NCBI RefSeq assembly: GCF_014191305.1
Contig: NZ_JACHWJ010000002.1
Span: 434,001 to 498,000, forward strand
Length of the DNA: 64,000 nt
Source: Pseudoclavibacter helvolus
GTDB lineage: Bacteria > Actinomycetota > Actinomycetes > Actinomycetales > Microbacteriaceae
Direction of reading: 5' to 3'
Numbering within the stretch: position 1 is the stretch's first letter; each line of letters opens with the position of its first letter. Shown piece after piece: positions 1,616 through 21,386 of this stretch. The notes under the pieces are model-generated. The model saw only the letters and a program-made list of their open reading frames with translations, searched no databases and was not told the origin of the DNA. The position numbers and the translations under genes are program-made.

Positions 1616-1625
1616 TGTCCTAACA
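1616..1625. promoter_or_regulatory. IolR-type operator upstream of the tautomerase gene
   Basis: TGTCCTAACA fits KGWCHTRACA at every position and sits inside AATGTCCTAACAAA, the flanking context shared with three other sites. It lies 72 bp upstream of the tautomerase start (1544, minus strand) and downstream of the gene ending at 1730. Confidence 0.7.
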
Positions 1626-1729
1626 AATGATGTAGGTGGACGGGAACCACAAAGGGCCGCGTCCAAAGGGATGCGGCCCTGGTGGTCGGGCGCGGGGCTC
1701 TCGCAGAAGAGTCGCGCCCAAATCTGGGG

Positions 1730-2734
1730 TCAGAGCGACGCTTTGAGCGCGGCGTCGGCGTCGGCGAGGACTTTCGCCGCCACCTCGAGGCCTTCGATAC
1801 GTCTAAGCGAAGTGTCCTCGTGTTCGATGTTGACCCACATCTCCGGGTCGACCTCGTGGAGCGCGCGCAGGAACTCCGTCCAGAACTCCGTGTCGTGGCC
1901 GCGTCCGAGGGCGACGAAGTCCCACGCGGAGTTCTTCGGCCACTCGTTGGCCCACTCGTCGCCACCGAGGTTGGTGCGCGGCTCGTCGGCCGAGAGCTTG
2001 CGGAACTGGTTGTCGAGCACACCGTAGATCGCGGCGGCGGGGTTGACTCGAACGTCCTTGGCGGCCGCGTGGAAGACCCACTTGCCGAGGTCGCGGACCA
2101 CGGCGACCGGGTCCATCTGCTGCCAGAAGAGGTGCGAGGCGTCGAGCTCGACACCGATGTTGGTCGTACCGGCCCGCTCAATGAGCTCGCGGAAGTTCGC
2201 CGGGTTGAAGGCCACGTTCTGCGGGTGAAGTTCGAGTGCCACCTTCACGCCGTGCTCGCGGGCGAGTTCGTCGATCTCGGCCCAGAACTTCGCCGCAACG
2301 TCCAGTTGGTAGTCGATGACGTCGAGTGCAGCCGAGTTCCAGGCGTTGACCACCCAGTTCACGGTCGAAGCTCCTGGCTCGCCCCCGGGGAGGCCCGACA
2401 TTGTGACGACGCGGTCCTGGCCGAGTCGAGCCGCGAGGCGGATCGAGCGGCGGATGTCCTCCGCGTGCTTCTCGCCGATCGCCCGGTCTGGGTGCAGCGG
2501 GTTGCCGTTGCAGTTGAGCCCGGCGATCGAGACGCCCGTGCCCTCGAACTGGGCGAGGAACGCATCCCGCGCCTCGTCGCTCTCGAGGATCTCGTCGAAG
2601 TTCGGGATGTGGGTTGCAGGGAGGAAGCCGCCCGAGTTGAGCTCGATTCCCGTGAGCCCGAGGTCGGCGATGACCTTGATCGCCTCAGGCAGCGACCGGT
2701 CGTGGAGGATCGCGTTGTAGACGCCGAGACGCAT
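1730..2734 (-). CDS. Sugar phosphate isomerase/epimerase (TIM barrel, AP endonuclease 2 fold)
   Basis: This is a 334-residue Xylose-isomerase-like TIM-barrel protein. Typical elements are 'LTGIELNSGGFLPA' near residue 30, the metal-site region 'VKVALELHPQNVAFNP' near 165-180, 'NIGVELDASHLFWQ' near 197-210 and a late 'WVNIEHEDTS' strand. The family includes inosose dehydratase, inosose isomerase and hydroxypyruvate isomerase, and the exact substrate cannot be read from the sequence. Its ATG overlaps the TGA of the upstream oxidoreductase (TGATG), so the two are translationally coupled and probably act on the same cyclitol or sugar acid. Confidence 0.75.
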   Translation of the reverse strand: MRLGVYNAILHDRSLPEAIKVIADLGLTGIELNSGGFLPATHIPNFDEILESDEARDAFLAQFEGTGVSIAGLNCNGNPLHPDRAIGEKHAEDIRRSIRLAARLGQDRVVTMSGLPGGEPGASTVNWVVNAWNSAALDVIDYQLDVAAKFWAEIDELAREHGVKVALELHPQNVAFNPANFRELIERAGTTNIGVELDASHLFWQQMDPVAVVRDLGKWVFHAAAKDVRVNPAAAIYGVLDNQFRKLSADEPRTNLGGDEWANEWPKNSAWDFVALGRGHDTEFWTEFLRALHEVDPEMWVNIEHEDTSLRRIEGLEVAAKVLADADAALKASL

Positions 2735-3948
2735 CAGGAACCTGCCTTCGCGGAGATCGTGGTCGAGGAGTCGATCGTGACCGTCGCGCCGCCGGCCGCA
2801 GCCGACTCGGCAACTGCGCCGAGCAGTTCCATGTTGTGGATGCCCTCTGCGAACGTGGCGCAGCGGGGGAGTGCCTCGGCTTCCGGTACGCCGGCAACCT
2901 CTTCGAGGAACGAGCGCGCCTGATAGGCAAAAGCATCGTTCTGGCCGAAACCCACGCTCGGCGCATCCATGGCGAGGCCGCCGCCGATGTAGGGGTGCTC
3001 CGGGCCGAGGATGACCTGGCGGTAGCCGTTCTGGGTGCCTTCACCGGTCTTGAGGAAGAGCTCGATCTCGGCGGGGCGGCGCTGGTCGAAGCGCGCGGCA
3101 CCGTTCTCGCAGAAGACCTCGAAGATGAGACTGTTGGCGTGGCCCGGGGCGACGCGGGAGACCTCGAAGCCGCCGACGCCGTGCTCGAACTTCGCCGAGA
3201 AGGCTGCGTAGTCATCGTTTTCGACGGGTTCGAAGGTGTCGCTGACGGCGGCGTGATCGTGGCCGAGCACTGCGCCGAGCGGCAGGGGGCGCTCGGTGAT
3301 GACAGTGCTGAGTCGGCCGCCGCTGATCTCCTGGATGTCGCCGCACAGGAACTCCGCGACGTAGGCCAGGTGGCTGCCGACGTCGGCAAGTGCACCAGTG
3401 CCGGCACCACCCTTGAAGCGCCAGCTCATGGGTGCTGTGGGGCTGGAGGCGTAGTCGGTCCAGTAGCGGCCGCTGAAGTGGAGCACTTCGCCGAGCGTTC
3501 CGTCCTGGATGAGCTGGCGGATGTATGCGATGCCCGGCGTGCGGCGGAACGTGAAGCCGACGCGAGCGATGGATTCGGCGCGCTCGGCGGCCTCTGCCAT
3601 GGCGTAGGCGTCCTCGATGGAGTCGCTGAGCGGCTTCTCGCAGAGCACGTGCTTGCCGGCCGCGAGGAGTCCCTCGACGACCTCGCGGTGCAGCGAGTTC
3701 GCGATGACGACGCTCACGACGTCGATGTCGTCGGCGGCCGCGATGGCCTGCCAGGACGAGTCGGTGCGCTCGTAGCCGAAGCGCTTGGCGGCGAGGGCGC
3801 CGAACTCCGGGTTGACGTCGCCGATGGAGACGAGGCGGATCTCAGGCAGCGTGGGGCTGTAGAGGGTGGATGCAACGCGGTAGGCCGCGGCGTGTGCGCG
3901 CCCGGCCATGCCTGCGCCGATGACGGCGACGCCCAGTGACTTGGACAT
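2734..3948 (-). CDS. Gfo/Idh/MocA-family oxidoreductase, probable cyclitol dehydrogenase
   Basis: The product has 404 residues. Its N-terminal Rossmann motif is 'VAVIGAGMAGRAHAAAYR' (residues 7-24) and the catalytic EKP motif appears in 'GKHVLCEKPLSDSIEDAY'. The C-terminal GFO_IDH_MocA barrel contains 'ALADVGSHLAYVAEF'. The start at 3948 is supported by ACAGGAGAA 5-13 nt upstream; an open frame extends to 4059 but runs through the operator region. NAD(P)-dependent inositol (myo- or scyllo-) dehydrogenation is the likely role given the IolR box upstream, but other polyols remain possible. It is distinct from the IolG homologue at 12815-13837. Confidence 0.75.
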   Translation of the reverse strand: MSKSLGVAVIGAGMAGRAHAAAYRVASTLYSPTLPEIRLVSIGDVNPEFGALAAKRFGYERTDSSWQAIAAADDIDVVSVVIANSLHREVVEGLLAAGKHVLCEKPLSDSIEDAYAMAEAAERAESIARVGFTFRRTPGIAYIRQLIQDGTLGEVLHFSGRYWTDYASSPTAPMSWRFKGGAGTGALADVGSHLAYVAEFLCGDIQEISGGRLSTVITERPLPLGAVLGHDHAAVSDTFEPVENDDYAAFSAKFEHGVGGFEVSRVAPGHANSLIFEVFCENGAARFDQRRPAEIELFLKTGEGTQNGYRQVILGPEHPYIGGGLAMDAPSVGFGQNDAFAYQARSFLEEVAGVPEAEALPRCATFAEGIHNMELLGAVAESAAAGGATVTIDSSTTISAKAGS

Positions 3949-4044
3949 TGGTTCTCCTGTAGTTCTGCGAGAGCTGTGGTGGGTGAGCGCAGGCGACCGA
4001 CGACGGTGTTGGAGCGCTACACTGGAAGGTAGGTCATGAAAGAA

Positions 4045-4054
4045 TGTCCTGTCA
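4045..4054. promoter_or_regulatory. IolR-type operator between oxidoreductase and lacI-type genes
   Basis: TGTCCTGTCA in the context AATGTCCTGTCAAA matches the consensus with one mismatch; read on the other strand (TGACAGGACA) it also has one mismatch. It is 97 bp upstream of the minus-strand oxidoreductase start and 25 bp upstream of the plus-strand LacI start, so one bound dimer could affect both. Confidence 0.6.
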
Positions 4055-4078
4055 AACACAAGTTCTCCGGAGTGTCGA

Positions 4079-5146
4079 ATGCCTGCATCCCCTCGCCAGA
4101 AGCGACCGACGATCTACGACGTCGCCGAGAGGGCCGGGGTTTCCAAATCGCTCGTCTCACTTGTGCTGCAGAACTCGACCCGGGTGAGCGACGAGAAGCG
4201 CGCAGCCGTTCGCGCCGCCATCCAGGAGCTTGGCTATCTGCCGAGCCGGGCGGCGACGGCACTCGCAGGGAATCGGACGCGCGCGATCGGCGTCATGATC
4301 GACGACTTCAGGAACCCGTGGTTCGTCGACCTCCTCGAGGGGATGCAGGAGGTCCTCAACGGGCCCGGCTTCCACGTGACTGTCGCAGATGCGAACCTGA
4401 ACGCACACCTCGAGCAGTCCCCGATCAGCGGCTTCCTGGCGGCCGGAGTCGAAGGTCTTGTCATCGGCGGCGACGTCGACGCGGTGCCGGTGGAGGGCTT
4501 CCCGGTGCCGACCGTCGTCGCGGGGAACCGGGCGACGGTTCCGGTCGGGGCGGACCTCGTGGCCAACGATGACGAGGCGGGGGGCCGCCTGGCTGTCGAG
4601 CACCTGCGAGCGCTCGGACACACCAAGATCGGCCACGTCACGGGAAGCGGTCGCGCGGCTGAGCTACGGCGCAGCGCCTATGAGGCGGCGATGGTGGAGG
4701 CGGGGCTTGAGCCGCGAATCGTCGGGGGGTCCGGCGTGACCGACCAGGATGAAGGTCGTCGGGCATCGCGTGAGCTGTTCGAACGCTGGCCAGAGACGAC
4801 CGCGATCTTCGCGGCGAACGACGTCATGGCGCTCGGCGTGCTCGGGACGCTCGACGAGCTCGGGATGCGCGTGCCTGCCGACGTGTCGATCGTCGGCTAC
4901 GACGACTCTCACCTCGCGGGTGCCGACCACCTGTCGCTCACGTCCGTCGACGACCGGAGCGCCGACGTCGGACGGGTCGCGGCGGAACTCCTCCTGGCTC
5001 GTATCGAGCGGCGGCTGCCGAGTTCGGGCGAGGCGACCGTTACGGGCGAGGCGACCGCCACGGGTGAGCTTGGGGGAGTCCGCAGGCTCATCCAGCCGAC
5101 GCTCACCGTTCGCGGGTCGACGGCGTTCGCGAAGCGCTCAGCCTGA
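4079..5146 (+). CDS. LacI-family transcriptional regulator
   Basis: This 355-residue protein has a LacI helix-turn-helix at residues 9-30 ('TIYDVAERAGVSKSLVSLVL') with the hinge region at about 50-60. A periplasmic-binding-protein-like ligand domain follows, containing 'AIFAANDVMALGVLGTLDELG' and the diagnostic 'VSIVGYDDSHLAGADHLSLT'. CCGGAG lies 6 nt before the ATG. Near the C-terminus an 18-bp tandem repeat inserts an acidic Gly-Glu-Ala-Thr stretch that most LacI proteins lack. It is divergent from the oxidoreductase/isomerase pair and convergent with the galactokinase-like gene. Either could be its target; the effector is unknown. Confidence 0.85.
   Translation: MPASPRQKRPTIYDVAERAGVSKSLVSLVLQNSTRVSDEKRAAVRAAIQELGYLPSRAATALAGNRTRAIGVMIDDFRNPWFVDLLEGMQEVLNGPGFHVTVADANLNAHLEQSPISGFLAAGVEGLVIGGDVDAVPVEGFPVPTVVAGNRATVPVGADLVANDDEAGGRLAVEHLRALGHTKIGHVTGSGRAAELRRSAYEAAMVEAGLEPRIVGGSGVTDQDEGRRASRELFERWPETTAIFAANDVMALGVLGTLDELGMRVPADVSIVGYDDSHLAGADHLSLTSVDDRSADVGRVAAELLLARIERRLPSSGEATVTGEATATGELGGVRRLIQPTLTVRGSTAFAKRSA
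5025..5068. repeat. 18-bp in-frame tandem repeat in the lacI-type gene
   Basis: Two 18-bp units (5025-5042 and 5043-5060, three differences clustered at the 3' end) are followed by an 8-bp partial third copy. They encode repeated GEAT(V/A)T between the ligand core and the final beta strand. Confidence 0.8.
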
Positions 5147-5154
5147 GCGCCGCG

Positions 5155-5172
5155 GGTCGTGATGTCACGACC
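5155..5172. terminator. Short palindrome between convergent genes
   Basis: GGTCGTGATGTCACGACC is a perfect 8-bp inverted repeat with a 2-nt centre, located between the convergent stop codons of the LacI and galactokinase-like genes. No T-run follows, so termination is only a guess. Confidence 0.4.
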
Positions 5173-5186
5173 GTGAGGGATGCGCC

Positions 5187-8282: not shown

Positions 8283-8306
8283 TCAGCGGCAGACACGCAG
8301 TATCCC

Positions 8307-8342
8307 CGAACGGGCGGTCCGAGCAATCGGCCCGCCCGTTCG
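8307..8342 (+). terminator. Terminator after the DEAD-box helicase
   Basis: The arms CGAACGGGCGG and CCGCCCGTTCG are separated by a segment that can itself form CCGA/TCGG, giving a nested hairpin 24 bp after the helicase stop. Confidence 0.75.
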
Positions 8343-8450: not shown

Positions 8451-8492
8451 GGCGCTAGGCGCTAGGCACTAGGCGTCGGGCGCTAGGCGCTA
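8451..8492. repeat. Heptanucleotide tandem array (GGCGCTA)6
   Basis: Six consecutive 7-bp units cover 8451-8492: GGCGCTA, GGCGCTA, GGCACTA, GGCGTCG, GGCGCTA, GGCGCTA. Four are perfect. The final unit supplies the TAG stop codon of the minus-strand GntR gene (8490-8492), so on that strand the array reads as repeated TAGCGCC. Confidence 0.9.
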
Positions 8493-10306: not shown

Positions 10307-11755
10307 CTACTTCGCAGTCGGGAGGAAGATCGCTCCGGTCGTGACGTCCTCATCCAGCGACTCGAGCGTGCGGCCGCGAGTCTCGGGGATCTGCGTCGCC
10401 ACGAAGATGAGTGCGATCACGTTCAGCGCGCCGAACAGGAAGAAGGTTCCAGTGATGCCCATCCCGTCGACGAGCGAGGGGAAGTACAACGACAGGAAGC
10501 CGTTCGCGACCCAGAGGAAGAAGATCGAGACGCCCATGCCAATGCCGCGCATGTGCAGCGGGAACACTTCGGACAGGTAGACCCAGACGGCCACGTTCAG
10601 GAACGTCTGCATCGACCCGACGAACGCGACGACGAGGAACAGGATGACCCAAGGGCGCAGCGGGTTGCCGACCTCGAGCAGCATCGAGGACAGGCCGATG
10701 AGCAGGTGGCAGATCGTTGTCAGTGTGAAGCCGATGATGAACGTCTTGCGGCGGTCGAACTTGTCCATGTAGGAGAGTGCGATGAACGCACCGACCACGG
10801 CGATGATGCCGGGGGCGATGTTGGCGATGAGCGCGGCGCTCGAGTCGAAGCCAGACTCGATGAGCACGATCTGGCCGTAGTACATGATCGAGTTGATGCC
10901 CGTGAGCTGCTGGGCGACACCGAGTCCGATGCCGACGAGGAGGATGCGGAGGAGCCACTTGTTCTTGAGGATGGCTGCGAAGCCGACCTGCTTCTCGTTC
11001 CCCTCCTCGATCGCGACCTTCTCGACCTGGGCGAGCTCTGCTTCTGCGCGCTCGGGGGATCGGACCGTCTTGAGGACCTCGAGCGCCTCGGCGTCGCGGC
11101 CCTTCTCGACGAGCCAGCGGGGCGACTCTGGCATGCGCAGCATGCCGAAGAACAGGCAGATGGCCGGGATGGCGCAGACGGCGAACATGATGCGCCAGAC
11201 GCCGTCGAGGTGGCCGAGTGTGTTGCCGAGGATGGCGTTGATGATGAAGGCCGAGAGCTGGCCGATGACGATGGCGGCTTCGTTGCGGCCCGAGATGGAC
11301 CCGCGGATCTCGTAAGGCGCCAGCTCGGCCAAGAAGACCGGGACGACGGTTGACGCGCCGCCGACGGCGAGACCCAGGAGGATGCGGCCGACGACCAGAA
11401 CTTCGAAGTTCGGCGTGAAGACGACGACGAGCGTGCCGAGGAAGAACAGCACGGCGAGCATGATGATCGTCTTGCGGCGGCCCCAGCTGTCGGAGAGGCG
11501 GCCGCAGAAGATGGCGCCGATGGCCGCTGCGAAGACGAGGGAGCTCGTGACGACACCCTCGGTGAAGGGTGTGAGTCCGAGCTCTTCGGTCATCGGGTTC
11601 AGGGCCCCGTTGATGACACCGGTGTCATAGCCGAAGAGGAGACCGCCGAAGCACGCGACGATTGAGATCAGCCCGAGCCGCGAGCGGTGCGGTCCGGCTG
11701 TGAGGGGCGGAAGTGATTTCTCGGCGGTGTTGCCCGCCGGATGCGATGAGGCCAT
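10307..11755 (-). CDS. iolT: MFS sugar porter, probable myo-inositol transporter
   Basis: The 482-residue protein has 12 predicted membrane helices with the sugar-porter signatures: 'FGGLLFGYDTGVINGAL' in TM1, 'GRLSDSWGRRKTII' in loop 2-3, 'PESPRWLVEKGRDAEAL' after TM6 and 'PETRGRTLESLDE' after TM12. The GYDTGVINGA form of TM1 is common in IolT-type inositol/proton symporters. An IolR-type operator lies about 100 bp upstream, and the gene stands next to the iol operon in the same orientation. Uptake of myo-inositol is inferred from family plus context; other hexitols are possible. Confidence 0.8.
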   Translation of the reverse strand: MASSHPAGNTAEKSLPPLTAGPHRSRLGLISIVACFGGLLFGYDTGVINGALNPMTEELGLTPFTEGVVTSSLVFAAAIGAIFCGRLSDSWGRRKTIIMLAVLFFLGTLVVVFTPNFEVLVVGRILLGLAVGGASTVVPVFLAELAPYEIRGSISGRNEAAIVIGQLSAFIINAILGNTLGHLDGVWRIMFAVCAIPAICLFFGMLRMPESPRWLVEKGRDAEALEVLKTVRSPERAEAELAQVEKVAIEEGNEKQVGFAAILKNKWLLRILLVGIGLGVAQQLTGINSIMYYGQIVLIESGFDSSAALIANIAPGIIAVVGAFIALSYMDKFDRRKTFIIGFTLTTICHLLIGLSSMLLEVGNPLRPWVILFLVVAFVGSMQTFLNVAVWVYLSEVFPLHMRGIGMGVSIFFLWVANGFLSLYFPSLVDGMGITGTFFLFGALNVIALIFVATQIPETRGRTLESLDEDVTTGAIFLPTAK

Positions 11756-11847: not shown

Positions 11848-11873
11848 TGACAGGATGTTAATATGTCCTGACA
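11848..11873. promoter_or_regulatory. IolR-type operator of iolT, extended palindrome
   Basis: TGTCCTGACA at 11864-11873 fits KGWCHTRACA exactly. An opposing half TGACAGGATGT at 11848-11858 matches the complement at 8 of 11 positions, giving a 26-bp imperfect palindrome. It is 93 bp upstream of the iolT start. Only here does a clear second arm accompany the box. Confidence 0.75.
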
Positions 11874-11885
11874 ATTTCTTCGAAG

Positions 11886-11929: not shown

Positions 11930-12802
11930 TCAGGAGGAGGCGACAAGCTCCCTGATCTTCTCGAGCTGAAACTTCGAGACCTCGTCGGCCCGCTCGTCTT
12001 CCGCGAAGACGTTCGAGACGATGAGCGCGTCCGGGCGGTCGAGGTAGCCGATCTCCTTGAGCGTCGTGAAGAGCTCCGTGAAGTCGACGTCGCCGTCCCC
12101 GATGCGGAGGTGCTGGTGGATGCGGGCCTCGTTCCCTGGAGGGTTCGAGATGTAGCGCAGCCCGTGCGAACGGTGGTGGTCGAACGTGTCGGCCGTGTAA
12201 ACCGCGCCGAGGCGCTCGCCAAGCTCGGGCAAGAGGGTGGTCGCCCGGTCGCCGTAGTGGAACGTGTGCGAGGCGACGTACACGAAGCCGACGTTCTTGC
12301 TGTTGAGGCCGCGGATGACGCGCCATCCCTCGAGGCCGTCCTCGACGAAGTCGTTGGGGTGCGGGTCGATGTTCAGCTGGATGCCCTCGCGCTCGAGGAT
12401 CGGCAGGAGCGTCTCCATGGAACGGTGGAAAGCATCCTCCGACTCGTTGAACTGCGAGGGTTCGCCGCTGAACTCGGTGTTGATGACCGGGATCTCAAGC
12501 AGGGAGGCGAGCTCGATGACCCGTGTGAAGTTGCGCACGGCCGCGAGGCGGCCCGCCTCTTCTGGGCCCGAGATGCGCTGGACCGGCAGGATGGCGGGGA
12601 TCGTGACCCCAGCATCCGCTGCGCGCTTCTTGAACTTCAGTGCGTAGGCGTCATCCGCCGACGGGTGGCGGAAGAACCACGAGAAGTCGGGGTGCGGAGT
12701 GATCTGCAGGTATTCGTAGCCCAGGCGGGCTGCGATATCCGGGAAGTCGAGGAAGCCGGCGTCGTGGTGGAACGGCGTCGGGTCCAGCGCGATGCGAACC
12801 AT
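11930..12802 (-). CDS. iolH: Sugar phosphate isomerase/epimerase, IolH-type
   Basis: The protein is a 290-residue TIM barrel. It starts 'MVRIALDPTPFHHDAG' and contains 'LGYEYLQITPHPDFSWFF', 'EREGIQLNIDPHPNDFVE' (probable metal ligands) and 'GDGDVDFTELFTTLKEIGY'. Length and N-terminus resemble IolH of Bacillus and Corynebacterium iol operons, and it occupies the iolH position as last gene of the operon. The biochemical step is not settled in the family. GGAAAG lies 7 nt before the ATG. iolG ends 12 bp upstream, so the genes are co-transcribed. Confidence 0.75.
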   Translation of the reverse strand: MVRIALDPTPFHHDAGFLDFPDIAARLGYEYLQITPHPDFSWFFRHPSADDAYALKFKKRAADAGVTIPAILPVQRISGPEEAGRLAAVRNFTRVIELASLLEIPVINTEFSGEPSQFNESEDAFHRSMETLLPILEREGIQLNIDPHPNDFVEDGLEGWRVIRGLNSKNVGFVYVASHTFHYGDRATTLLPELGERLGAVYTADTFDHHRSHGLRYISNPPGNEARIHQHLRIGDGDVDFTELFTTLKEIGYLDRPDALIVSNVFAEDERADEVSKFQLEKIRELVASS

Positions 12803-12814: not shown

Positions 12815-13837
12815 TTATGCCTTGTCGTAGAACGCGGGGCGCTCGACCTGCTGCACCTCGACGATGCCGCCGTCGAACGCCTTGACGCCGGCCTCGCAGG
12901 CGAGGGCCACGCGGTAGCCGTGGAAGGCGTCCGGGCCGTCGATCGTGCCGCGGGCAACCGCGTCCACCCAGCGCTGGATCTGAACGTCGTAGGCCGCCGC
13001 GAAGCGGGTCACGAACGACCGGTGCTCTTCCTTCGCGAACGCGCCGTCCGACCAGGTCTGCAGGCCGTTGGCCTGGCCGATGCGGGCGAGCCCGTTCGAG
13101 AACACGGCCTCGGTGGCGACCTGGTAGCCGAACTTGATGCTGACGTTCATCTCGACGTCGACGAGGATGCCGTTCTCGAGCTCGAGGAGCACGAGGATCG
13201 GCTCGCGGAGGCGCTCCGGAGAGTTCGGGTTGCGACGCATGTACTTGATCTCGATGCTGCGGATCTCGCTGCCGGCAAGCCACGGGATGACGTCGAGCTC
13301 GTGCACGACCGAGTCGTTAATGAGCATGTCCTGCGTGTACGTCTCCGGCACGTCGGGGTTGCGGTGCACGGCGCGCAGCGCGAGCAGCTCCCCGGCCTCG
13401 CCGGACGCGATGATCTCGCGCAGACGGGCGTACTCGGCGTCGAAGCGACGCATGAAGCCCAGCTGGATGAGGGGACGGTCAGACGCGGCCATCTCGGCCT
13501 CGACGACCCGCAGCGACGACGCGGAGTCGGCCGTCAGCGGCTTCTCGCACAGGATGGGCAGCTTCGCCGCGAGTGCAGGGAGCAGCACTGGCTCGTGGAA
13601 CTTGCCAGGGGTCGCGATGACAACCGCGTCGACGGCGTTCGCCGCGATGGCGTCCTCGATGCTCGTGAACCACTGCGCGCCAGGGGCGTTCTGCAGGGCC
13701 GCGGTGCCGCGCCCCTCGTCTGGCTCGATGACGGCCGAGACGACAGCGCCGCTGATGCGCTTCGTGATGCGGGCGATGTGGTCGGCGCCCATGAGGCCGG
13801 CGCCGACGACGCCGACGCGGAGGTCAGTTGAAGTCAT
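12815..13837 (-). CDS. iolG: Inositol 2-dehydrogenase IolG
   Basis: This 340-residue Gfo/Idh/MocA enzyme has the NAD-binding motif 'VGVVGAGLMGADHI' (8-21), catalytic Lys in 'LPILCEKPLTADS', and 'QLGFMRRFDAEYARL', a form typical of myo-inositol dehydrogenases. 'INDSVVHELDVIPWLAG' supplies the conserved Asp/His (HExD) of the active site. It oxidises myo-inositol to 2-keto-myo-inositol, the first catabolic step. AGGAACC lies about 7 nt upstream of the ATG. Flanked by iolE and iolH in the order known from the C. glutamicum iol cluster. Confidence 0.9.
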   Translation of the reverse strand: MTSTDLRVGVVGAGLMGADHIARITKRISGAVVSAVIEPDEGRGTAALQNAPGAQWFTSIEDAIAANAVDAVVIATPGKFHEPVLLPALAAKLPILCEKPLTADSASSLRVVEAEMAASDRPLIQLGFMRRFDAEYARLREIIASGEAGELLALRAVHRNPDVPETYTQDMLINDSVVHELDVIPWLAGSEIRSIEIKYMRRNPNSPERLREPILVLLELENGILVDVEMNVSIKFGYQVATEAVFSNGLARIGQANGLQTWSDGAFAKEEHRSFVTRFAAAYDVQIQRWVDAVARGTIDGPDAFHGYRVALACEAGVKAFDGGIVEVQQVERPAFYDKA

Positions 13838-13864: not shown

Positions 13865-14776
13865 TTACTTGGCGCGGGCGGCTGGTGTGGAGCCGCAGAT
13901 GTGCTTGAGGGTGCGCTCGGCGATCGGGTACGGGCGGTCGGCGGAGCAGCCGAACATGTCCTGCTCGACGATGCCGAAGATGTTCGGGTCGATCTCGGCG
14001 GCGCGGGCCACGATGGGGCCGAGCTCCGGGATGCCGTTCGGCGGCTCGACCATGATCATGTCGGCGGCGGCTTCGGCCCACGGAACGTCGTTCTTGAGGA
14101 CGTCGAACAGGCGGTCAGGATCGACCTGCTTGAGGTGCAGGTAGCCGATGCGCTCGGGGTAGGCGTTCATGAGGCGCAGGCTGTCGCCGCCGTAGTAGGA
14201 GAAATGACCCGTGTCGAGGCAGAGATTCGTGTACTGAGCGTCGGTCTCGTTGAGGAGACGCTCGACCTCGCGGTACGTGCCGACGTGGCTGTCGGCGTGC
14301 GAATGGAACTGCTGCTTGACGCCGTACTCCTCGAGGAGCGCCTTGCCGAGCCGGTCGTGGCCAGCGGCGAGGCGCGTCCACTGCTCGGCGTCGAGCGTTC
14401 GTGGTTCCTTGGCCTGACCCGTGATGTCGTCGCGCCACATGTCGGGGATCGTCACGAGGTGCTCGGCGCCGAGCTTCGAGGCGAGGCCCGCGACGGCGAT
14501 GGCCTGGTCCCAGGCGCGCTGCCACTGGCTCTCGTCCTCATTGTGGAAGCCCGTGAACACCGTGCCGGCGGAGAGCTTGAGGCCACGCGACTCGAGCTCG
14601 TCAGAGAGCTGGTTGGGGTCGGTGGGGAGGTAGCCGTACGGGCCGAGCTCGATCCACGTGTAGCCGGCCTTCACAACCTCGTCGAGGAAGGTCTGCCAGG
14701 GGATCTGGCCGGGGTGGTCGGGGAGCCAGATGCCCCAGGAGTCAGGGGCGGTTCCGATTCGGATGCTCTGCGACAT
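13865..14776 (-). CDS. iolE: Inosose dehydratase IolE-type TIM-barrel protein
   Basis: The 303-residue protein begins 'IRIGTAPDSWGIWLPDHPG', an IolE-like N-terminus, followed by 'GYTWIELGPYGYLPTDP', 'QQFHSHADSHVGTY' and 'NLCLDTGHFSYYGGD', which carry the Glu/His/Asp metal ligands of the AP-endonuclease-2 fold. IolE removes water from 2-keto-myo-inositol to give the trihydroxycyclohexane dione that IolD hydrolyses. Its position between iolD and iolG supports the call. Sugar isomerase activity on a related cyclitol cannot be excluded from sequence alone. Confidence 0.8.
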   Translation of the reverse strand: MSQSIRIGTAPDSWGIWLPDHPGQIPWQTFLDEVVKAGYTWIELGPYGYLPTDPNQLSDELESRGLKLSAGTVFTGFHNEDESQWQRAWDQAIAVAGLASKLGAEHLVTIPDMWRDDITGQAKEPRTLDAEQWTRLAAGHDRLGKALLEEYGVKQQFHSHADSHVGTYREVERLLNETDAQYTNLCLDTGHFSYYGGDSLRLMNAYPERIGYLHLKQVDPDRLFDVLKNDVPWAEAAADMIMVEPPNGIPELGPIVARAAEIDPNIFGIVEQDMFGCSADRPYPIAERTLKHICGSTPAARAK

Positions 14777-14843
14777 CGTCGTCTGCTTTCTGTTGGTGTT
14801 CGTAGTGAAGTTCGTGTGCGTGTTCGTGCGTGTCCTGCGGTGA

Positions 14844-14875
14844 GGGGCCGGCGGCGGGAGATCCGATCCGGCCCC
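14844..14875 (-). other. Intra-operon hairpin between iolD and iolE
   Basis: GGGGCCGG and CCGGCCCC, 16 nt apart, form an 8-bp GC stem just after the iolD stop, inside the 105-nt iolD-iolE spacer. There is no T-run. It could stabilise the upstream mRNA, attenuate transcription, or have no role. Confidence 0.5.
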
Positions 14876-14881
14876 GACCGG

Positions 14882-16780
14882 TCAGCCGAGCAGGGGCCGC
14901 TGAGCGGCCTTCTGCTGCTTGTAGTCCTCGAGCGCGCTCTTTGTGGAGTCGAGCGTGGAGGTCTCGGCGACCGGCACATCCCACCATCCTTCGCCGTCAG
15001 GCGCGTAGATGAGGGGGTTGCTGTTGATGTGGATGAGCGTCGAGGTGTCGGAGGCCTTCGCCTTGGCCATGGCCTCGCGCAGGTCGCCGATCGCGTCGGC
15101 GCTCGGCTCGATCTCGATGGTGTCGATGCCGTAGCTGCGGGCGTTGGCGGCGAGGTCGACGGGCAGGATCTGGTCGCCCTGGAAGTTCGAGCCTGCCTCG
15201 TCGAACGCGCGGTACCAGGTGCCGAAGCGCTCGGAACCGACGGTCTCGGAGAGGTGTCCGATGGAGGCGTAGCCGTGGTTCTGGATGAGCACGACGATGA
15301 TCTTGATGCCCTCGGCCACTGCCGTCACGAGCTCCGTGTGGAGCATGAGGTAGGAGCCGTCGCCGACCATGACGATGACGTCACGGTCCGGTGCGCCACG
15401 GCGAACGCCCATGCCACCGGCGATCTCGTAGCCCATGCAGGAGAAGGCGTACTCGACGTGGTAGCCGAGTGGGTCGCGGACCCGCCACAGCTTGTGGAGG
15501 TCGCCGGGCAGCGAGCCGGCAGCCTGGACGATGACGTCGCGCGGGTCGCTCGACTCCTGGACAGCGCCGATGATCTCCGGCTGGCCCGGCAGGTCGAGGC
15601 CGCTCGGCTCGAAGGCGACATCGACGGCCGCGTCCCACTCGCTCTTCTCGGCCGCGATCTGCCGCGAGTAATCGTCGCTCACGCGGAACCCGGAGAGGGC
15701 ACCGATGAGCTTCACGAGCGTCTCACGAGCGTCCGCTACGACGGGCAGCTGCGAGCCGTGCTTGTAGGCGTCGAAGGCGGCGACGTTGATGTTCACGAAG
15801 CGCGCGCCGTCGTTCTGGAACACAGTGCGGCTGGCCGTCGTGAAGTCGCTGTAGCGCGTGCCGATGCCGATGACGACGTCTGCCTGCGCTGCGAGGCGGT
15901 TGGCCGCTGTTGTGCCGGTCGCGCCGATGCCGCCGAGGTACTGCGGGTGGTCCCAGTCGAGGGATCCTCCGCCTGCCTGGCTTGTACCGACGGGAATGCC
16001 CGTGGCCTCCACGAAGGCGCGCAGCTCGTTCTCGGCACCCGAGTAGATGACGCCGCCGCCGGCGACGATGATCGGGTTCTTGGCGTTCTTGATCGCCTCG
16101 ACGGCGCGCGCGAGCGGGCCCGCTTCGGGGAGGGGGCGGCGGATGTGCCACTCGCGCTCCTCAAGGAAGGCGAGGGGTACGTCGATGAGCTCTGCCTGGA
16201 CGTCCTCGGGCAGCGCGATCGTCACGGCACCGGTCTCAGCCGGGTCGGTGAGGACCCGCATGGCGGCAAGCGCGATCGAGTACAACTGCTCGGGGCGCTG
16301 CACGCGGTCGAAGAAGCGGGAGAGGGGACGGAACGCATCCGTCACCTGGATGCCCGTGTCGTGCGGGAACTCGAGCTGCTGCAGCACGGGGTCGGCGACG
16401 CGCGTCGCGAAGGTATCGCTCGGCAGGAGCAGCGCTGGCAGGCGGTTCGCCGTGGCGAGGGCCGCACCCGTGAGCATGTTGGCTGCGCCCGGTCCGACGG
16501 ACGCGGCGCTCGCGTAGGTCGCGCGGCGGCGGTGCATGCGCGCGTAGCCCACCGACTGGTGCACCATCGCCTGCTCGTTGCGCGCCTGGAAGTACGGCAT
16601 GAGCGTCGGGTCCTCGACGTTGGCCTGCTTGAGCGCCTGGCCGATGCCGGCGACATTGCCGTGGCCGAAGATTCCGAACATGCCGGGGATCGTGCGCTCG
16701 CGCACGTCGCCATCGACGGTGTACTGCTTGCCGAGGAACTCGACGAGGGCCTGGCCGACGGTCATTCGCTTGGTTGACAT
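14882..16780 (-). CDS. iolD: 3D-(3,5/4)-trihydroxycyclohexane-1,2-dione hydrolase IolD
   Basis: This 632-residue ThDP-dependent enzyme carries the acetolactate-synthase fold. The N-terminal Pyr domain has 'GIFGHGNVAGIGQAL' and 'MVHQSVGYARMHRRR' (catalytic Glu side in 'QARNEQAMVH'); a central domain contains 'RFVNINVAAFDAYKHG'. The PP domain has the metal motif 'IVMVGDGSYLMLHTEL' with a following Asn in 'IQNHGYASIG'. It opens the dione ring to 5-deoxy-glucuronate. The start at 16780 (MSTKRMTV) is preferred because AGAAAG lies 9 nt upstream; the ATG at 16789 would abut that sequence. Confidence 0.9.
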   Translation of the reverse strand: MSTKRMTVGQALVEFLGKQYTVDGDVRERTIPGMFGIFGHGNVAGIGQALKQANVEDPTLMPYFQARNEQAMVHQSVGYARMHRRRATYASAASVGPGAANMLTGAALATANRLPALLLPSDTFATRVADPVLQQLEFPHDTGIQVTDAFRPLSRFFDRVQRPEQLYSIALAAMRVLTDPAETGAVTIALPEDVQAELIDVPLAFLEEREWHIRRPLPEAGPLARAVEAIKNAKNPIIVAGGGVIYSGAENELRAFVEATGIPVGTSQAGGGSLDWDHPQYLGGIGATGTTAANRLAAQADVVIGIGTRYSDFTTASRTVFQNDGARFVNINVAAFDAYKHGSQLPVVADARETLVKLIGALSGFRVSDDYSRQIAAEKSEWDAAVDVAFEPSGLDLPGQPEIIGAVQESSDPRDVIVQAAGSLPGDLHKLWRVRDPLGYHVEYAFSCMGYEIAGGMGVRRGAPDRDVIVMVGDGSYLMLHTELVTAVAEGIKIIVVLIQNHGYASIGHLSETVGSERFGTWYRAFDEAGSNFQGDQILPVDLAANARSYGIDTIEIEPSADAIGDLREAMAKAKASDTSTLIHINSNPLIYAPDGEGWWDVPVAETSTLDSTKSALEDYKQQKAAQRPLLG

Positions 16781-16837
16781 CTGCGTCATCTTTCTGCGTT
16801 GGTACTGAGCTGTTGCTGGTGCGCTGGAGGCGCGGCG

Positions 16838-17770
16838 TTACTGCTTGGGGCCGTACGGGAGGCGGGAGTCGAACTCCTGAGAGGTCCACTGCTCGCGCAC
16901 CCAGCCGTGGGCCGGGTCGTCGCTGATGAGCCACTCGCGCGCCTCGTCCGGACCCGCCATGACGTTCAGGTAGTACAGGTCGTAGCCGGGGGCCGCGACG
17001 GCGGGGCCGTGGTAGCCGAACGGGACCAGCGCGATGTCTCCGGTGCGGACGATCTCGTTGATCGAGATCTCGCCGGCAGGCGACGTGTAGGTCGCGAACA
17101 TGCCGAAGGCGTCAGCGCCCTCTGGGACCGTCGCGTTCTTGGTTGGCTCGCTCTCGAAGTAGTAGATCTCCTCGAGGCGGCTCTCGTGGCCCGGGTGGTG
17201 CTCGTCGTGCTTGTGGGGAGGGTACGACGACCAGTTCTCGGCCGGCGTGATGACCTCGCACACGATGAGCTTGGCGGCCTGCAGCGAACCGGGGATGCCG
17301 AAGTTCTGCACCTGACGGCTCGAGCGGCCCGCACCCCGGAGCTCGACCGGCACGTCGCCCTTGCGCAGCACCTGGAAGGGGAAGACCTGCGTCGTCGGTG
17401 CCTCTGCAACGGCGACCCTGCCGCTGCCGGTCACCGTGGCGCTGGTCCCGACGGGCAGGTAGGCCACGTCAGCTGGCCCGTCGAAGACTGAGGGACGGCC
17501 CTCGAGCTCGACGGATGCGGGCGCATCCGCCCCGTCGAGCTCGAGGCGCGCGTTTCCGCGGAGGGGGATGACCATTCGCTCAATGTCGCCTGCTGGCAGC
17601 TCGAGGCGCAGACCATCGGAGAGGTTCGCGACTCGGATGCCGGTGTGTTCCCAGCCGGGGAGCGTCGCATCGACAACGCTCTCCCAGCCGTCTCGCGAGA
17701 GGGCTCCGCGGGCCCTGAACCAGGTGTTCTCTGCTGTGTCCCTGTGGGGAGATGCTGCGTGTGAGGACAT
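16838..17770 (-). CDS. iolB: 5-deoxy-glucuronate isomerase IolB
   Basis: The 310-residue bicupin contains the metal-binding motif 'YPPHKHDEHHPGHESRLEE' (His and Glu ligands) and a second conserved stretch 'ALVPFGYHGPAVAAPGYDL'. It isomerises 5-deoxy-glucuronate to 2-deoxy-5-keto-gluconate. The length is slightly above the family norm of about 270-300, through an N-terminal extension. It lies between iolA and iolD in the same orientation, with a 65-nt spacer to iolA and 57 nt to iolD. Confidence 0.92.
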   Translation of the reverse strand: MSSHAASPHRDTAENTWFRARGALSRDGWESVVDATLPGWEHTGIRVANLSDGLRLELPAGDIERMVIPLRGNARLELDGADAPASVELEGRPSVFDGPADVAYLPVGTSATVTGSGRVAVAEAPTTQVFPFQVLRKGDVPVELRGAGRSSRQVQNFGIPGSLQAAKLIVCEVITPAENWSSYPPHKHDEHHPGHESRLEEIYYFESEPTKNATVPEGADAFGMFATYTSPAGEISINEIVRTGDIALVPFGYHGPAVAAPGYDLYYLNVMAGPDEAREWLISDDPAHGWVREQWTSQEFDSRLPYGPKQ

Positions 17771-17835
17771 TGCTCGTGAGTCTTTCTAGGTGCGAATGGT
17801 CTGGCTAGCCGTGTGGGCTAGTCGTGCTGGGCTGG

Positions 17836-19359
17836 TTATTCGTTTTCGGGGAAGCCGAGGTTGATGCCGCCGTGCTTGGCGGGGTCGAGCCAGCGGCTGG
17901 TGACGGCTTTCTCGCGGGTGTAGAAGTGGAAGCCTTGGAGGCCGTAGGCCTTGCTGTCGCCGAAGGCGGAGTCTTTCCATCCGCCGAAGGAGTAGTAGGC
18001 GACGGGGACGGGGATGGGCACGTTGATGCCGATCATGCCGACCTGGATCTCGTTCTGGAAGCGGCGGGCGGCGCCGCCGTCGTTGGTGAAGATCGCGGTG
18101 CCGTTGCCGAACTGGCCGGTGTTGATGAGCTCAACGCCTTCCTCGAAGCTCTTGACGCGGACGATGCCGAGGACGGGGCCGAAGATCTCTTCCGTGTAGG
18201 CGCGGCTGGTGGTGGGGAGGTTGTCGATGAGGGTCGGTCCGAGCCAGAACCCGCCGTCCGCGCCTTCGGCCTGGATGGTGCGGCCGTCGACGAGGACGTC
18301 GGCGCCGTCGTCTTTCGCGATCTGGATGTAGGAGGCGATCTTGTCGCGGTGTACTTCCGACACGATGGGGCCCATGTCGGGTTCCTTGTGGGTGTCGGTG
18401 GGGGTGCCGTCACCGATGCGGAGCTTCGCGATGCGCTCGGTGACTTTCTCGATGAGCTTGTCGGCGACGGGTTCGATCGCGAGGACCACGCTGATGGCCA
18501 TGCATCGCTCGCCCGCGGACCCGTAGCCGGCGTTGATGGCCTGGTCGGCGACGAGGTCGAGGTCCGCGTCTGGGAGCACGAGCATGTGGTTCTTCGCGCC
18601 GCCGAGCGCCTGGACGCGTTTGCCGTTCTTGGACGCGGTTTCGTAGATGTACTGCGCGATCGGGGTCGAGCCGACGAACGAGATCGCGGCGACGTCGTCG
18701 TGGTTCAGGAGGCCATCGACGGCTTGCTTATCGCCGTGGAGGACGTTGAAGACACCGTCGGGAAGGCCCGCTTCTTTCCAGAGTTCGGCGAGCCAGACCG
18801 CGGCGGACGGGTCCTTCTCGGAGGGCTTGAGGACGACGGTGTTGCCGACGGCGATCGCGATGGGGAAGAACCACATGGGGACCATGGCGGGGAAGTTGAA
18901 GGGGCTGATGATGCCGACCACGCCGAGGGCTTGCTTGATGGAGAACACGTCGACGCCGGTGGAGGCGTTCTCGGTGAAGTCGCCCTTCATGATGTGGGGG
19001 AAGCCGGTCGCGAGTTCCACGACCTCGAGGCCGCGCTGGATCTCGCCAGCGGCGTCGGAGACGACCTTCCCGTGCTCGGACGTGATGATGCGGGCGAGCT
19101 CGAACTTCCGCTCGTTCAGCAACTCACGGAACTTGAAGATGATGTTCTGGCGCTTCGCGATCGACGTGTTCGACCAGCCGGGGAAGGCGGCCTTGGCGGC
19201 GGCAATCGCGGCGTTGATTTCAGCATCGTCGGCGAGAGCGACGTTGCTCGTCGCGGTGCCGAGAGCCGGGTTGAAGACCGGCGAGGTGCGCGCTGGCGTC
19301 GCGGTCGAGAAGGCGCCGTTGATCCAGTGCTGGATCGTGGGCAGGGCGGTGTCAGTCAT
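17836..19359 (-). CDS. iolA: CoA-acylating methylmalonate/malonate-semialdehyde dehydrogenase IolA
   Basis: This 507-residue aldehyde dehydrogenase has 'VVGIISPFNFPAMVPMWFFP' in the cofactor domain, 'ISFVGSTPIAQYI' (NAD binding) and the catalytic cysteine in 'GYGSAGERCMAISV'. 'SFGGWKDSAFGD' near the C-terminus is characteristic of MmsA/IolA. It converts malonate semialdehyde to acetyl-CoA and CO2 at the end of the inositol pathway. AAGGAAC lies 8 nt before the ATG. Confidence 0.92.
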   Translation of the reverse strand: MTDTALPTIQHWINGAFSTATPARTSPVFNPALGTATSNVALADDAEINAAIAAAKAAFPGWSNTSIAKRQNIIFKFRELLNERKFELARIITSEHGKVVSDAAGEIQRGLEVVELATGFPHIMKGDFTENASTGVDVFSIKQALGVVGIISPFNFPAMVPMWFFPIAIAVGNTVVLKPSEKDPSAAVWLAELWKEAGLPDGVFNVLHGDKQAVDGLLNHDDVAAISFVGSTPIAQYIYETASKNGKRVQALGGAKNHMLVLPDADLDLVADQAINAGYGSAGERCMAISVVLAIEPVADKLIEKVTERIAKLRIGDGTPTDTHKEPDMGPIVSEVHRDKIASYIQIAKDDGADVLVDGRTIQAEGADGGFWLGPTLIDNLPTTSRAYTEEIFGPVLGIVRVKSFEEGVELINTGQFGNGTAIFTNDGGAARRFQNEIQVGMIGINVPIPVPVAYYSFGGWKDSAFGDSKAYGLQGFHFYTREKAVTSRWLDPAKHGGINLGFPENE

Positions 19360-19446
19360 GGGTGTTCCTTCGCTGTGTTGCGCCGGTCTGGAGCGGCGCT
19401 GGTGGATGCGGCAGCTGCCGCGACGAGGGGTGTTGGTGGTCCGAGC

Positions 19447-20355
19447 TCAGCTCGTGGTGTGGACGAGGCTTGCGGCCGTGTCCACGGCCGCGGCGACGTC
19501 GCCATCGGCGGGGTAGAGGAGGGTGCGCCCCACGACGAGCCCACGAACGCCCGGGAGGGCGAGGGCGTCAGCCCACTTGGCGTACACCGCCTCTTGGTCG
19601 CCGTTCGGCTCGCCGCCGAGCAGGAGCGTCGGCAGGGTCGTCGCCGCCATGACGCGCTCCATCTCAGGCACGACGGGCAGCTTCATCCAGGTGGATCCGG
19701 AGCTGTTGCCGAGGCCGGAGGTGATCGCGATCGAGTTGATGACGGCGTCGGGCGACAGGTCGTTGACGATCCGTCCCTCCCTCCACTCGCTCATGAACGG
19801 CTCGAGCATGATGGGGAGGGATGCTGCTGCCGCGTCGTCGACCGCACGGGCGTTGGCCTCGAGCGTCGAGACCGTGCCGGCATCCGCAAGGTTCACTCGC
19901 ACGAGCGTCTTGGCGAAGTCGATGCCGTCGCGCACCATCGAGTCGACGTCGTAGCCCGTGAAGCGGTCGTCCATCTCGAAGCTCGCGCCCCTGAGGCCAC
20001 CGCGGTTCATGGAACCGACGATGAGCTTGTCGTCGAGCACGCCCAGCAGGGCGAGGTCGTCGATGATGTCCGGCGTTCCGAGCACACCGTCGACGCCGGG
20101 CCGCGAGAGGGCAAGCGCGAGACGGTCGAGCAGGTCGTAGCGGTCGGCCATCGCCATGGCGTCGTCGCGGACGCCGAGGGCGCCACGCGCAGGGTGGTCG
20201 GCGGCCACGAAGAACAGCCTGCGGTCTTCAGGGAGGAGCGACGCACGGCGCTTGCGGTTCGCGAGCGCTTCCCGCAGTGCCGCGGGGCCATCAGCCCTGG
20301 CGTCACGGAGCTTCTCGAACGCCGCTTCGTCGAGGATCCGGTACTTCTCAGGCAA
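19447..20355 (-). CDS. Cgl0159-family (beta/alpha)8 aldolase, probable IolJ-equivalent
   Basis: This 302-residue protein belongs to the DeoC/LacD/FbaB-type aldolase barrel group as represented by C. glutamicum Cgl0159. Recognisable parts are 'RLFFVAADHPARGALG', 'DKLIVGSMNRGGLRGA', 'ITSGLGNSSGSTWMKLP' (Schiff-base lysine candidate) and 'LPTLLLGGEPNGDQEAVYAK'. No classical iolJ is present, so it is the best candidate to cleave 2-deoxy-5-keto-gluconate-6-phosphate to dihydroxyacetone phosphate and malonate semialdehyde. The start is TTG at 20355 with GGAGAA 7 nt upstream, overlapping the iolC stop by 8 nt. Confidence 0.8.
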   Translation of the reverse strand: MPEKYRILDEAAFEKLRDARADGPAALREALANRKRRASLLPEDRRLFFVAADHPARGALGVRDDAMAMADRYDLLDRLALALSRPGVDGVLGTPDIIDDLALLGVLDDKLIVGSMNRGGLRGASFEMDDRFTGYDVDSMVRDGIDFAKTLVRVNLADAGTVSTLEANARAVDDAAAASLPIMLEPFMSEWREGRIVNDLSPDAVINSIAITSGLGNSSGSTWMKLPVVPEMERVMAATTLPTLLLGGEPNGDQEAVYAKWADALALPGVRGLVVGRTLLYPADGDVAAAVDTAASLVHTTS

Positions 20356-21316
20356 GAGAGTTCTCCTTCAGGATCTCGTCGACCTCCGCCGTCGATGGCA
20401 TTGCGGTCGAGCACTCGAGTCGCGAGGCCACGATGGCGCCGGCGATGTTCGCGAAGCGCAGGATGTGCTCGAGGTCCCACCCTGCGATGAGGCCCTTGCA
20501 GAAGGCTCCGCCGAAGCTATCGCCGGCTCCGAGGCCATTGATGACGTCGACGAAGTGCGTCGGCACTTCGATTGAGCCCTCGCGGGTCTTCGCGAGGACG
20601 CCCCTCGGACCCTGCTTGACAACCGCGATGTCGACGCCTCGCTCGAGGAGCGCATCCGCCGCCCGCTGGGGCTCGGTCTCGCCGACGGCGACCTCGCACT
20701 CCTCCTTGTTGCCGATCGCGATCGTCGACTGCGCGAGGATCGGCTCGATCACGGCCGTCGCGGTGGCGGCGTCGGGCCAGAACATGGCGCGGTAGTCGAG
20801 GTCGAGGATCGTGTGGTCGCGGCGAGCACGCGCAGCGAACGCGGCGTGGTGCGCGGCGCGGCTCGGCTCCTCGGAGAGGCCCGTGACGGTCGCCCAGAAG
20901 ATCTTGGCGTTGCGGATCGCGTCGAGGTCGAGCGTCTCGGCCTCGATGTTGAGGTCCGGAGCCTTCGGCTGTCGGTAGAAGTAGAGGGGGAAGTCATCCG
21001 GCGGGAAGATCTCGCAGAACGTGACCGGGGTTGCGAGCGAGTCGTCGCGCGTCACGAAGTCGCTCTTGACGCCGAGGCGCTCGAGCTCCCGCACGATGTA
21101 GCGGCCGAAGGGGTCGTCGCCGGTGCGGGTGATGACCGCCGAGCTCAGGCCGTGCTTCGCACCGGCGACGGCGACATTCGTCGCGCTGCCGCCGAGGAAC
21201 TTCCCGAAGGTCGAGACGTCCTCGAGCCCGACTCCGGTCTGGAGGGGGTAGATGTCGACACCCACACGGCCAAGCGTGATGAGGTCAAACGCGGAGGTTT
21301 GTGTTGCAGTGGTCAT
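20348..21316 (-). CDS. iolC: 5-dehydro-2-deoxygluconokinase IolC
   Basis: This 322-residue PfkB-family kinase has the N-terminal 'TFGKFLGGSATNVAVAGAK' substrate region (residues 37-55) and the C-terminal PfkB signature 'VINGLGAGDSFGGAFCKGL' with the catalytic Asp. It phosphorylates 2-deoxy-5-keto-gluconate. It is the first gene of the iolC-to-iolH operon; the IolR-type box lies 61 bp upstream of its ATG. The ribosome-binding site (AGAG) is weak. Confidence 0.92.
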   Translation of the reverse strand: MTTATQTSAFDLITLGRVGVDIYPLQTGVGLEDVSTFGKFLGGSATNVAVAGAKHGLSSAVITRTGDDPFGRYIVRELERLGVKSDFVTRDDSLATPVTFCEIFPPDDFPLYFYRQPKAPDLNIEAETLDLDAIRNAKIFWATVTGLSEEPSRAAHHAAFAARARRDHTILDLDYRAMFWPDAATATAVIEPILAQSTIAIGNKEECEVAVGETEPQRAADALLERGVDIAVVKQGPRGVLAKTREGSIEVPTHFVDVINGLGAGDSFGGAFCKGLIAGWDLEHILRFANIAGAIVASRLECSTAMPSTAEVDEILKENSLA

Positions 21317-21376
21317 ACGGCTCTGTACAACTTTCAGTCCGATGGTGAACGAGGACGAGAGTCAGCATACACCTAA

Positions 21377-21386
21377 TGTCCTGACA
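21377..21386. promoter_or_regulatory. IolR-type operator of the main iol operon
   Basis: TGTCCTGACA, an exact fit to KGWCHTRACA, in the context AATGTCCTGACAAA, 61 bp upstream of iolC. It is the only recognisable regulatory site in the 120-bp gap to the next gene. Confidence 0.75.

Follow-up and report, generated by a model that had tools for sequence, protein, structure and literature searches.

The window analysed here, a 64,000-nucleotide stretch of the 3.84-Mb genome of the soil actinobacterium Pseudoclavibacter helvolus (contig NZ_JACHWJ010000002.1; G000:C2:434001-498000 in our numbering), carries an inositol catabolic (iol) operon, a presumed inositol transporter gene (iolT) and a gene for a GntR/HutC-type regulator at 272..1048 (plus strand). 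Sequence comparisons give us considerable confidence that this regulator binds a short operator at or near five promoters, which would form an inositol regulon that includes a predicted malonate semialdehyde decarboxylase (MSAD) and a transaldolase-family protein, TalX. An earlier note on the window had proposed that one operator unites four transcription units under the same protein; recurrence of the box in other genomes, its conservation and its co-occurrence with the regulator strongly support that proposal, which we widen to five units. The fifth site, before TalX, is new here and had not been seen by the earlier note. A widespread actinobacterial inositol regulon would thus gain a likely regulator and operator, and the operator points to two extra enzymes, MSAD and TalX, that the pathway may use.

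The proposed operator boxes and the GntR regulator

All four boxes listed in the earlier note are present at its positions 1616, 4045, 11864 and 21377. As 14-bp sites these candidate operators are box 1 before the MSAD gene (1614..1627, AATGTCCTAACAAA), box 2 between an oxidoreductase gene and lacI (4043..4056, AATGTCCTGTCAAA), box 3 before iolT (11862..11875, TATGTCCTGACAAT) and box 4 before iolC (21375..21388, AATGTCCTGACAAA). Read along the minus-strand genes, three are TTTGTYAGGACATT or near it and box 2 is TTTGACAGGACATT. KGWCHTRACA, taken here, after the earlier note, as the Corynebacterium glutamicum IolR consensus, has three matches in the window, precisely the three boxes said to fit it exactly; the box at 4045 (TGTCCTGTCA) is, as claimed, the one with a single mismatch. 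The distance from 14-bp box to start codon is about 70 bp for the tautomerase-family MSAD gene (start 1544), 95 bp for the oxidoreductase gene (start 3948), 107 bp for iolT (start 11755) and 59 bp for iolC (start 21316), in line with the targets and the 60-110 bp spacing proposed (measured, ~59-107 bp). Box 2 additionally lies 22 bp upstream of the plus-strand lacI (start 4079). A common candidate operator therefore precedes both the iol operon and the transporter gene.

Conservation was assessed in four sister genomes of the same genus (G001, G004, G006 and G007), whose GntR proteins are 97-99% identical to that of the window; of the named relatives whose loci were compared, the closest is Pseudoclavibacter terrae THG-MD12, with a GntR 97% identical. 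All five box cores, including that before TalX, are retained in all four sisters. Counting the window genome with them, CCTAATGTCCTAACAAA of box 1, the whole of box 2 and TATGTCCTGACAA of box 3 are invariant in 5/5 genomes, as is the core of box 4, TGTCCTGACAAA, with the preceding base differing in two; in G001 and G004 box 4 lies on further contigs and has one flanking base altered. Box 1 is part of a stretch of 17 unchanged bases, although just 90 of the 218 columns of its intergenic region are invariant over the five genomes, and the TalX box is invariant in otherwise divergent intergenic DNA (107 of 236 columns). Four more congeners, G003, G005 (83% complete), G008 and G009, lack both an iolD match and a close GntR. 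A possible inverted second half-site by box 3 (TGACAGGATGT, 11848..11858) was judged weak, since only one of the four sisters retains it.

The same box recurs with the regulator in other genera. In the best 80 of 574 GntR-ortholog loci (1.54 Mb together, some ending at contig ends, none from C. glutamicum), 57 TGTCCTRWCA boxes were found against none in the reversed control. Scored by presence within 300 bp before a gene start, the box precedes gntR in 32/80 cases, iolC in 23/36, MSAD in 6/20, TalX in 4/16 and lacI in 1/3; none lies within that distance before the iolA, iolB, iolD, iolE, iolG, iolT, Cgl0159 and TIM-barrel starts in these loci that pass the identity limit. Sorted by target, 35 of the 57 boxes belong to gntR or iolC, six to MSAD, three to TalX, two to the oxidoreductase gene (one in P. 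terrae, one in Brevibacterium sp. S22, where the identity is 60%) and two to diverged iolE- or iolG-like genes, with nine before no scored gene. A wider pattern, sought over 350 bp, places a box before a scored gene in 54/80 loci. A second set of 31 MSAD-centred loci held 28 boxes versus one in the control, located before iolC in 9/19, MSAD in 9/30, iolD in 3/20, iolE in 1/11 and gntR in 1/10. The deviating form of box 2, TGTCCTGTCA, precedes iolC in 8/9 of the family-f6 loci that have iolC (by eye) and is therefore not a defect.

Regulator and pathway also occur together. Among 297 genomes of the order, the window genome counted, 113 have both a GntR ortholog and iolD, 16 the GntR ortholog only, 3 iolD only and 165 neither. 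iolD lies within 20 kb, the linkage limit of this survey, in 105 of the 129 GntR genomes. At least two of the five core iol genes scored (identity at least 40%) lie within 10 kb in 59/80 GntR loci.

The 272..1048 protein contains both a GntR domain (Pfam, 9.3e-15) and a UTRA domain (1.3e-38), which places it in the GntR/HutC group. HutC-type sites carry GT-N4-AC (PMC4494728), and TGTCCTGACA agrees with that pattern. Together with the close link between the box, the GntR and the iol genes, this makes the protein very probably the regulator that works the boxes.

We infer direct binding, repression rather than activation, and an inducer from the pathway itself. A GntR/HutC repressor of the actinobacterial IolR type would bind TGTCCTRWCA boxes in A/T flanks before MSAD, the oxidoreductase-TIM barrel unit and/or lacI, iolT, the operon running from iolC to its last, TIM-barrel gene, and the unlinked TalX. 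Inositol or an early intermediate would bind the UTRA domain and release the repressor from DNA, and this would switch on inositol uptake and breakdown jointly with the last, malonate semialdehyde steps. A GntR-type regulator, an iol operon, a major facilitator superfamily (MFS) transporter and a box that fits the consensus assumed above are all shared with the C. glutamicum IolR regulon, the two regulators being likened by type; MSAD, TalX and the oxidoreductase-TIM barrel-LacI genes are additions of the window. C. glutamicum IolR is a GntR-type repressor (PMC9603128, PMC12298647) relieved by myo-inositol (PMC8634428).

As a separate observation, two loci in records named as non-actinobacteria, Stenotrophobium rhamnosiphilum and Solimonas terrae (L257 and L266), hold a GntR 60-61% identical to that of the window. 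Their boxes are paired at a spacing of 18 bp, and horizontal transfer may be the cause.

The predicted MSAD and TalX

The gene at 1137..1544 (minus strand), annotated only as a tautomerase, is predicted to encode an FG41-type MSAD. The protein matches the FG41 coryneform enzyme (PDB 3mjz) with an E value of 3.4e-49 over 132 residues and that of Pseudomonas pavonaceae (2aag) with 1.3e-30. All of the FG41 signature residues, among them the catalytic Pro-1 and Asp-37 (PMC10606566), are present: Pro-1, Asp-37, Thr-72, Gln-73, Arg-76, Trp-114, Phe-116, Tyr-123 and Leu-128. Residue 74, Ala in the FG41 enzyme, is Arg in the window protein. In an alignment of 13 relatives (A3), Pro-1, Asp-37, Thr-72, Arg-76, Trp-114 and Phe-116 are found in 13/13, Gln-73 in 10/13, Tyr-123 in 7/13 (Phe in the rest) and Leu-128 in all 10 rows that reach it.

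Unlike the FG41 enzyme, the window protein has inositol catabolism as its setting. Of the 32 MSAD genomes of the order survey, 26 have the gene no more than 20 kb from iolD, and MSAD adjoins iolC in 9/10 family-f6 and 10/11 family-f12 loci (by eye). Where a box precedes MSAD in the GntR and MSAD loci, the gap between the closest box and the start codon is 17-26 bp in 14 of 15 cases, so short that repression fits better than activation. Inositol catabolism makes malonate semialdehyde before the IolA step (PMC9430895, PMC4437456). As this compound is the pathway's own product, the enzyme would remove a surplus of it, likely by decarboxylation to acetaldehyde. A precedent is IolK of Lactobacillus casei, an MSAD (PMC10606566) whose gene in strain BL23 lies in the iol operon (PMC2530867). 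The likeness, drawn by description only, is that of an MSAD tied to iol genes; IolK differs in coming from a Firmicute and from inside the operon, whereas the window gene stands outside it with its own box. The earlier note, which took the tautomerase for a non-standard regulon member and hence suggested a new role in cyclitol use, was thus partly right: the gene does lie outside the usual set, but its probable substrate is the pathway's own product, and IolK precedes it. A literature search for MSAD and inositol gave nothing on point among the matches listed. A gene known by its superfamily would in this way acquire a likely job.

TalX, a transaldolase-family protein of 370 residues, is encoded on another contig and unlinked to the window (G000:C6:69666-70775, loci L005 and L051); a perfect box precedes it by 150 bp. 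In G013, G016, G026 and G031 its orthologs are neighbours of GntR and iol genes. In the first of these, a Frondihabitans genome (locus L252), MSAD adjoins TalX and a single box precedes TalX. TalX is found within 20 kb of iolD in 29 of 37 TalX genomes, which brings to light a transaldolase-family enzyme accompanying inositol genes in many genomes; a literature search for transaldolase and inositol gave no link among the matches listed. MSAD and TalX occur together in six genomes, a co-occurrence that is not significant across the order (p 0.26).

A model of the Frondihabitans TalX (pLDDT 86.8) has transaldolases as its best Foldseek matches (3r5e, E 1.7e-16). TalX keeps the fold of the transaldolase family (C. 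glutamicum Tal 3r5e, Escherichia coli TalB and fructose-6-phosphate aldolase, FSA) and its Schiff-base Lys, Asn and Asp. The Lys is present in all nine rows of alignment A4, five TalX and four lower-scoring paralogs, and in all 12 TalX of alignment A5; both hold Frondihabitans sp. Leaf304, so that 16 distinct TalX sequences were covered. Unlike the classical transaldolases named, TalX sits with iol genes and has Gln in place of the catalytic Glu (5/5 in A4, 12/12 in A5), whereas the four paralogs keep Glu; a Phe of these paralogs is Met in TalX. The Gln aligns with the Glu of 3r5e, a position that we take, from PDB titles, to be Glu96 of E. coli TalB. FSA has a Gln59-Thr109-Tyr131 water network (PMC13259622), of which TalX has the Gln; the presumed Tyr131 position is Met.

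One rather unlikely reading makes TalX a natural aldolase rather than a transaldolase. Its substrate would be the product of IolB, unphosphorylated 2-deoxy-5-keto-D-gluconate, which it would split to give malonate semialdehyde and dihydroxyacetone, and MSAD would then decarboxylate the former to acetaldehyde. The two enzymes, under the same operator, would provide a branch that needs no phosphate and bypasses IolC, the Cgl0159-like aldolase and IolA. The adjacency of MSAD and TalX behind one box in Frondihabitans favours such a branch, as do the natural Glu-to-Gln change, which is the change engineered into TalB (PDB titles 4rz5 and 4rz6), and the stereochemistry of the substrate, whose C4 and C3 match C3 and C4 of fructose. 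The Met at the presumed FSA Tyr131 position and the non-significant co-occurrence of MSAD and TalX speak against it.

It is also conceivable that MSAD, TalX and the oxidoreductase-TIM barrel unit take no part in inositol catabolism; they could serve other pathways, for instance the breakdown of chloroacrylate or of sugar acids, and have the operator in common for historical reasons only. MSADs do act in 1,3-dichloropropene breakdown (PMC10606566). Among the 32 MSAD genomes, iolD is without a match in four (G067, G073, G117 and G187) and on another contig in two; among the 37 TalX genomes the corresponding numbers are six and two, the window genome being one of the latter two. The linkage of both genes to iolD in most of their genomes, the adjacency of MSAD and iolC, and the origin of malonate semialdehyde in the inositol pathway itself make this explanation unlikely.

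The oxidoreductase-LacI region and the weight of the evidence

Box 2 is the window site with the least certain target gene. On its one side lies a GFO/IDH/MocA oxidoreductase gene (2734..3948, minus strand; Pfam, NCBIfam and PDB matches), followed by a gene for a TIM-barrel protein (1730..2734, minus strand) of the AP_endonuc_2 family (Pfam, 4.3e-30) that is distantly IolE-like (29 bits with the IolE model, cut-off 290). On the other lies a LacI-family regulator gene (4079..5146, plus strand; Pfam and NCBIfam profile matches). Among PDB entries the oxidoreductase is related to 6a3f (E 1.4e-65), a putative dehydrogenase, and to 5ya8 (E 9.8e-55), a scyllo-inositol/L-glucose dehydrogenase; its best NCBIfam match, levoglucosan dehydrogenase, is far under the model cut-off. 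In the oxidoreductase direction box 2 shows TTGACA 18 bp before TACCTT, a pair read by eye and outside the rule of the promoter scan. Oxidoreductase, TIM barrel, MSAD and iolC are consecutive in 9/11 family-f12 loci (by eye). The window unit resembles the outlying oxiC-cg3390-oxiD-oxiE operon of C. glutamicum, which has inositol dehydrogenases and a putative sugar phosphate isomerase (PMC9603128), but with one dehydrogenase and a lacI; the two are likened by description. Beside lacI, at 5187-6413, lies a gene for a GHMP-family kinase (galactokinase-like, below NCBIfam cut-offs), 90-96% identical in the four sisters.

The intergenic region of lacI, mostly invariant, also holds a palindrome, TTGGAGCGCTACAC (4009..4022), unchanged in 5/5 genomes and a candidate LacI-type operator. 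This distinct conserved palindrome beside the adjacent lacI suggests that LacI also controls the oxidoreductase-TIM barrel unit, in response to a second signal. The earlier note took the TIM barrel for a non-standard regulon member; the unit does accompany inositol genes, as in family f12, but the adjacent lacI suggests the second signal.

Could another regulator, the LacI protein or the FCD-type GntR encoded at 8490-9173, bind the boxes, with the 272..1048 protein merely near? Box 2 does stand 22 bp before lacI, and in 4/5 family-f15 loci (by eye) the oxidoreductase and TIM-barrel genes and lacI are neighbours of MSAD and of a box, which there precedes MSAD rather than the oxidoreductase gene. 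Over the 80 GntR loci, however, the box tracks the UTRA-type GntR, and just three have a scorable lacI start; the lacI intergenic region holds its own, different palindrome; and the box matches the HutC-type pattern. We regard a different regulator as very unlikely.

Several observations nevertheless weigh against control of the boxes by the 272..1048 protein. Its own start in the window has no box upstream, unlike that of many relatives. Two core iol genes within 10 kb are lacking in 21/80 GntR loci, and in 26/80 no box lies near a scored gene even with the wider pattern. Genomes of one order share kinship, so that Fisher values from the survey overstate significance. Invariant columns make up 110/133 of the intergenic region at site 2, 142/187 at site 3 and 94/125 at site 4 (three genomes); as the whole region is well conserved there, footprints at these sites say less. 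A sigma-70-like promoter scan gave no match at sites 1, 2 and 4, and the match at site 3 abuts the box. iolC is preceded by TGTCATGACA in the congener G002 (GntR 70% identical), G012 and G013, and by TGTCATAACA in G019, boxes that read TGTCATRACA instead of TGTCCTRACA; the box thus drifts. Finally, the bare 10-mer TGTCCTRACA is not enriched in the window genome, where five places compare with 5.7 expected from base composition and three in the reversed control. Three of these places are grouped in 20 kb of the window, and a fourth, on C6, precedes TalX; the remaining one, C1:1122792, was dropped because of its position at a coding gene's 3' end.

Nor did the earlier note's consensus discriminate. 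Its three matches in the window compare with a mean of 0.95 in shuffled sequence, and 5/100 shuffles reach three, which is weak alone. Genome-wide, this loose consensus has 29 matches, among them two palindromic sites that count once for each strand, and its reversed control has 30; it is no proof by itself. TGTCNTRWCA, picked post hoc with the sites already seen, finds exactly the four boxes in the window (mean 0.80, maximum 3 in 100 shuffles). The A/T-flanked box WATGTCCTRACAWW occurs genome-wide at four exact places, of which the window holds three and the fourth is the TalX site on another contig, compared with 0.03 expected, and at six places with at most one mismatch (1.5 expected); exactly two mismatches gave ten rows, one being the opposite strand of the TalX site, and the reversed control gave nine at two mismatches or fewer. 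One of the single-mismatch places, C5:346777 (GGTCCTGACA), lies between thioesterase-like and lipoprotein-like genes (by reading of open reading frames) and is probably chance. As a pattern, WATGTCCTRACAWW was derived from the very sites that it describes; an independent test had to come from other genomes, and the box passed it. Frequent random hits, which the earlier note had named as a ground for refutation, do arise with the loose consensus; the argument rests instead on the A/T-flanked box and on its presence in other species. That the four boxes are chance matches of a short degenerate motif, as the control-level consensus and the unenriched 10-mer might suggest, is already contradicted by the invariance of box 1 and the TalX box amid divergent sister DNA and by the reversed-control counts in other species (57 vs 0, 28 vs 1), and has a negligible probability.

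The iol operon, transporter and related clusters

The iol operon behind box 4 lies on the minus strand, as does iolT. Its first gene is iolC (20348..21316; TIGR04382 over cut-off), followed by a gene for a Cgl0159-like protein, the presumed 2-deoxy-5-keto-D-gluconate phosphate (DKGP) aldolase (19447..20355; PF22649, 2.1e-126; PDB 3fok, E 3.9e-131), of a family present in C. glutamicum, which was used as a named control. Then come genes for IolA, the CoA-acylating methylmalonate/malonate semialdehyde dehydrogenase (17836..19359; TIGR01722 over cut-off), IolB (16838..17770; TIGR04378 over cut-off) and IolD (14882..16789; TIGR04377, 825 bits, cut-off 715). Below the cut-offs of their models are an IolE-like protein (13865..14776; TIGR04379, 6.1e-33, 115 bits, cut-off 290) and an IolG-like inositol dehydrogenase (12815..13837; NF052679, 2e-81, 274 bits, cut-off 540). 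The last gene encodes a TIM barrel, IolI/IolH-like by position (11930..12802; Pfam, 3.7e-39). The product of iolT, behind box 3, is an MFS sugar porter (10307..11755; Sugar_tr, 7e-100; TIGR00879 over cut-off), its presumed substrate being assigned from context.

A second, diverged iol-like cluster lies elsewhere in the genome (G000:C5:183000-196000, locus L326), with an iolD ~50% and an IolT-like protein 74% identical; no box and no GntR match were found in the 20 kb around it. Three genomes of another genus, g50 (G073, G117 and G187), have MSAD, TalX and the GntR ortholog and no iolD match; in that genus the regulon may serve another substrate.

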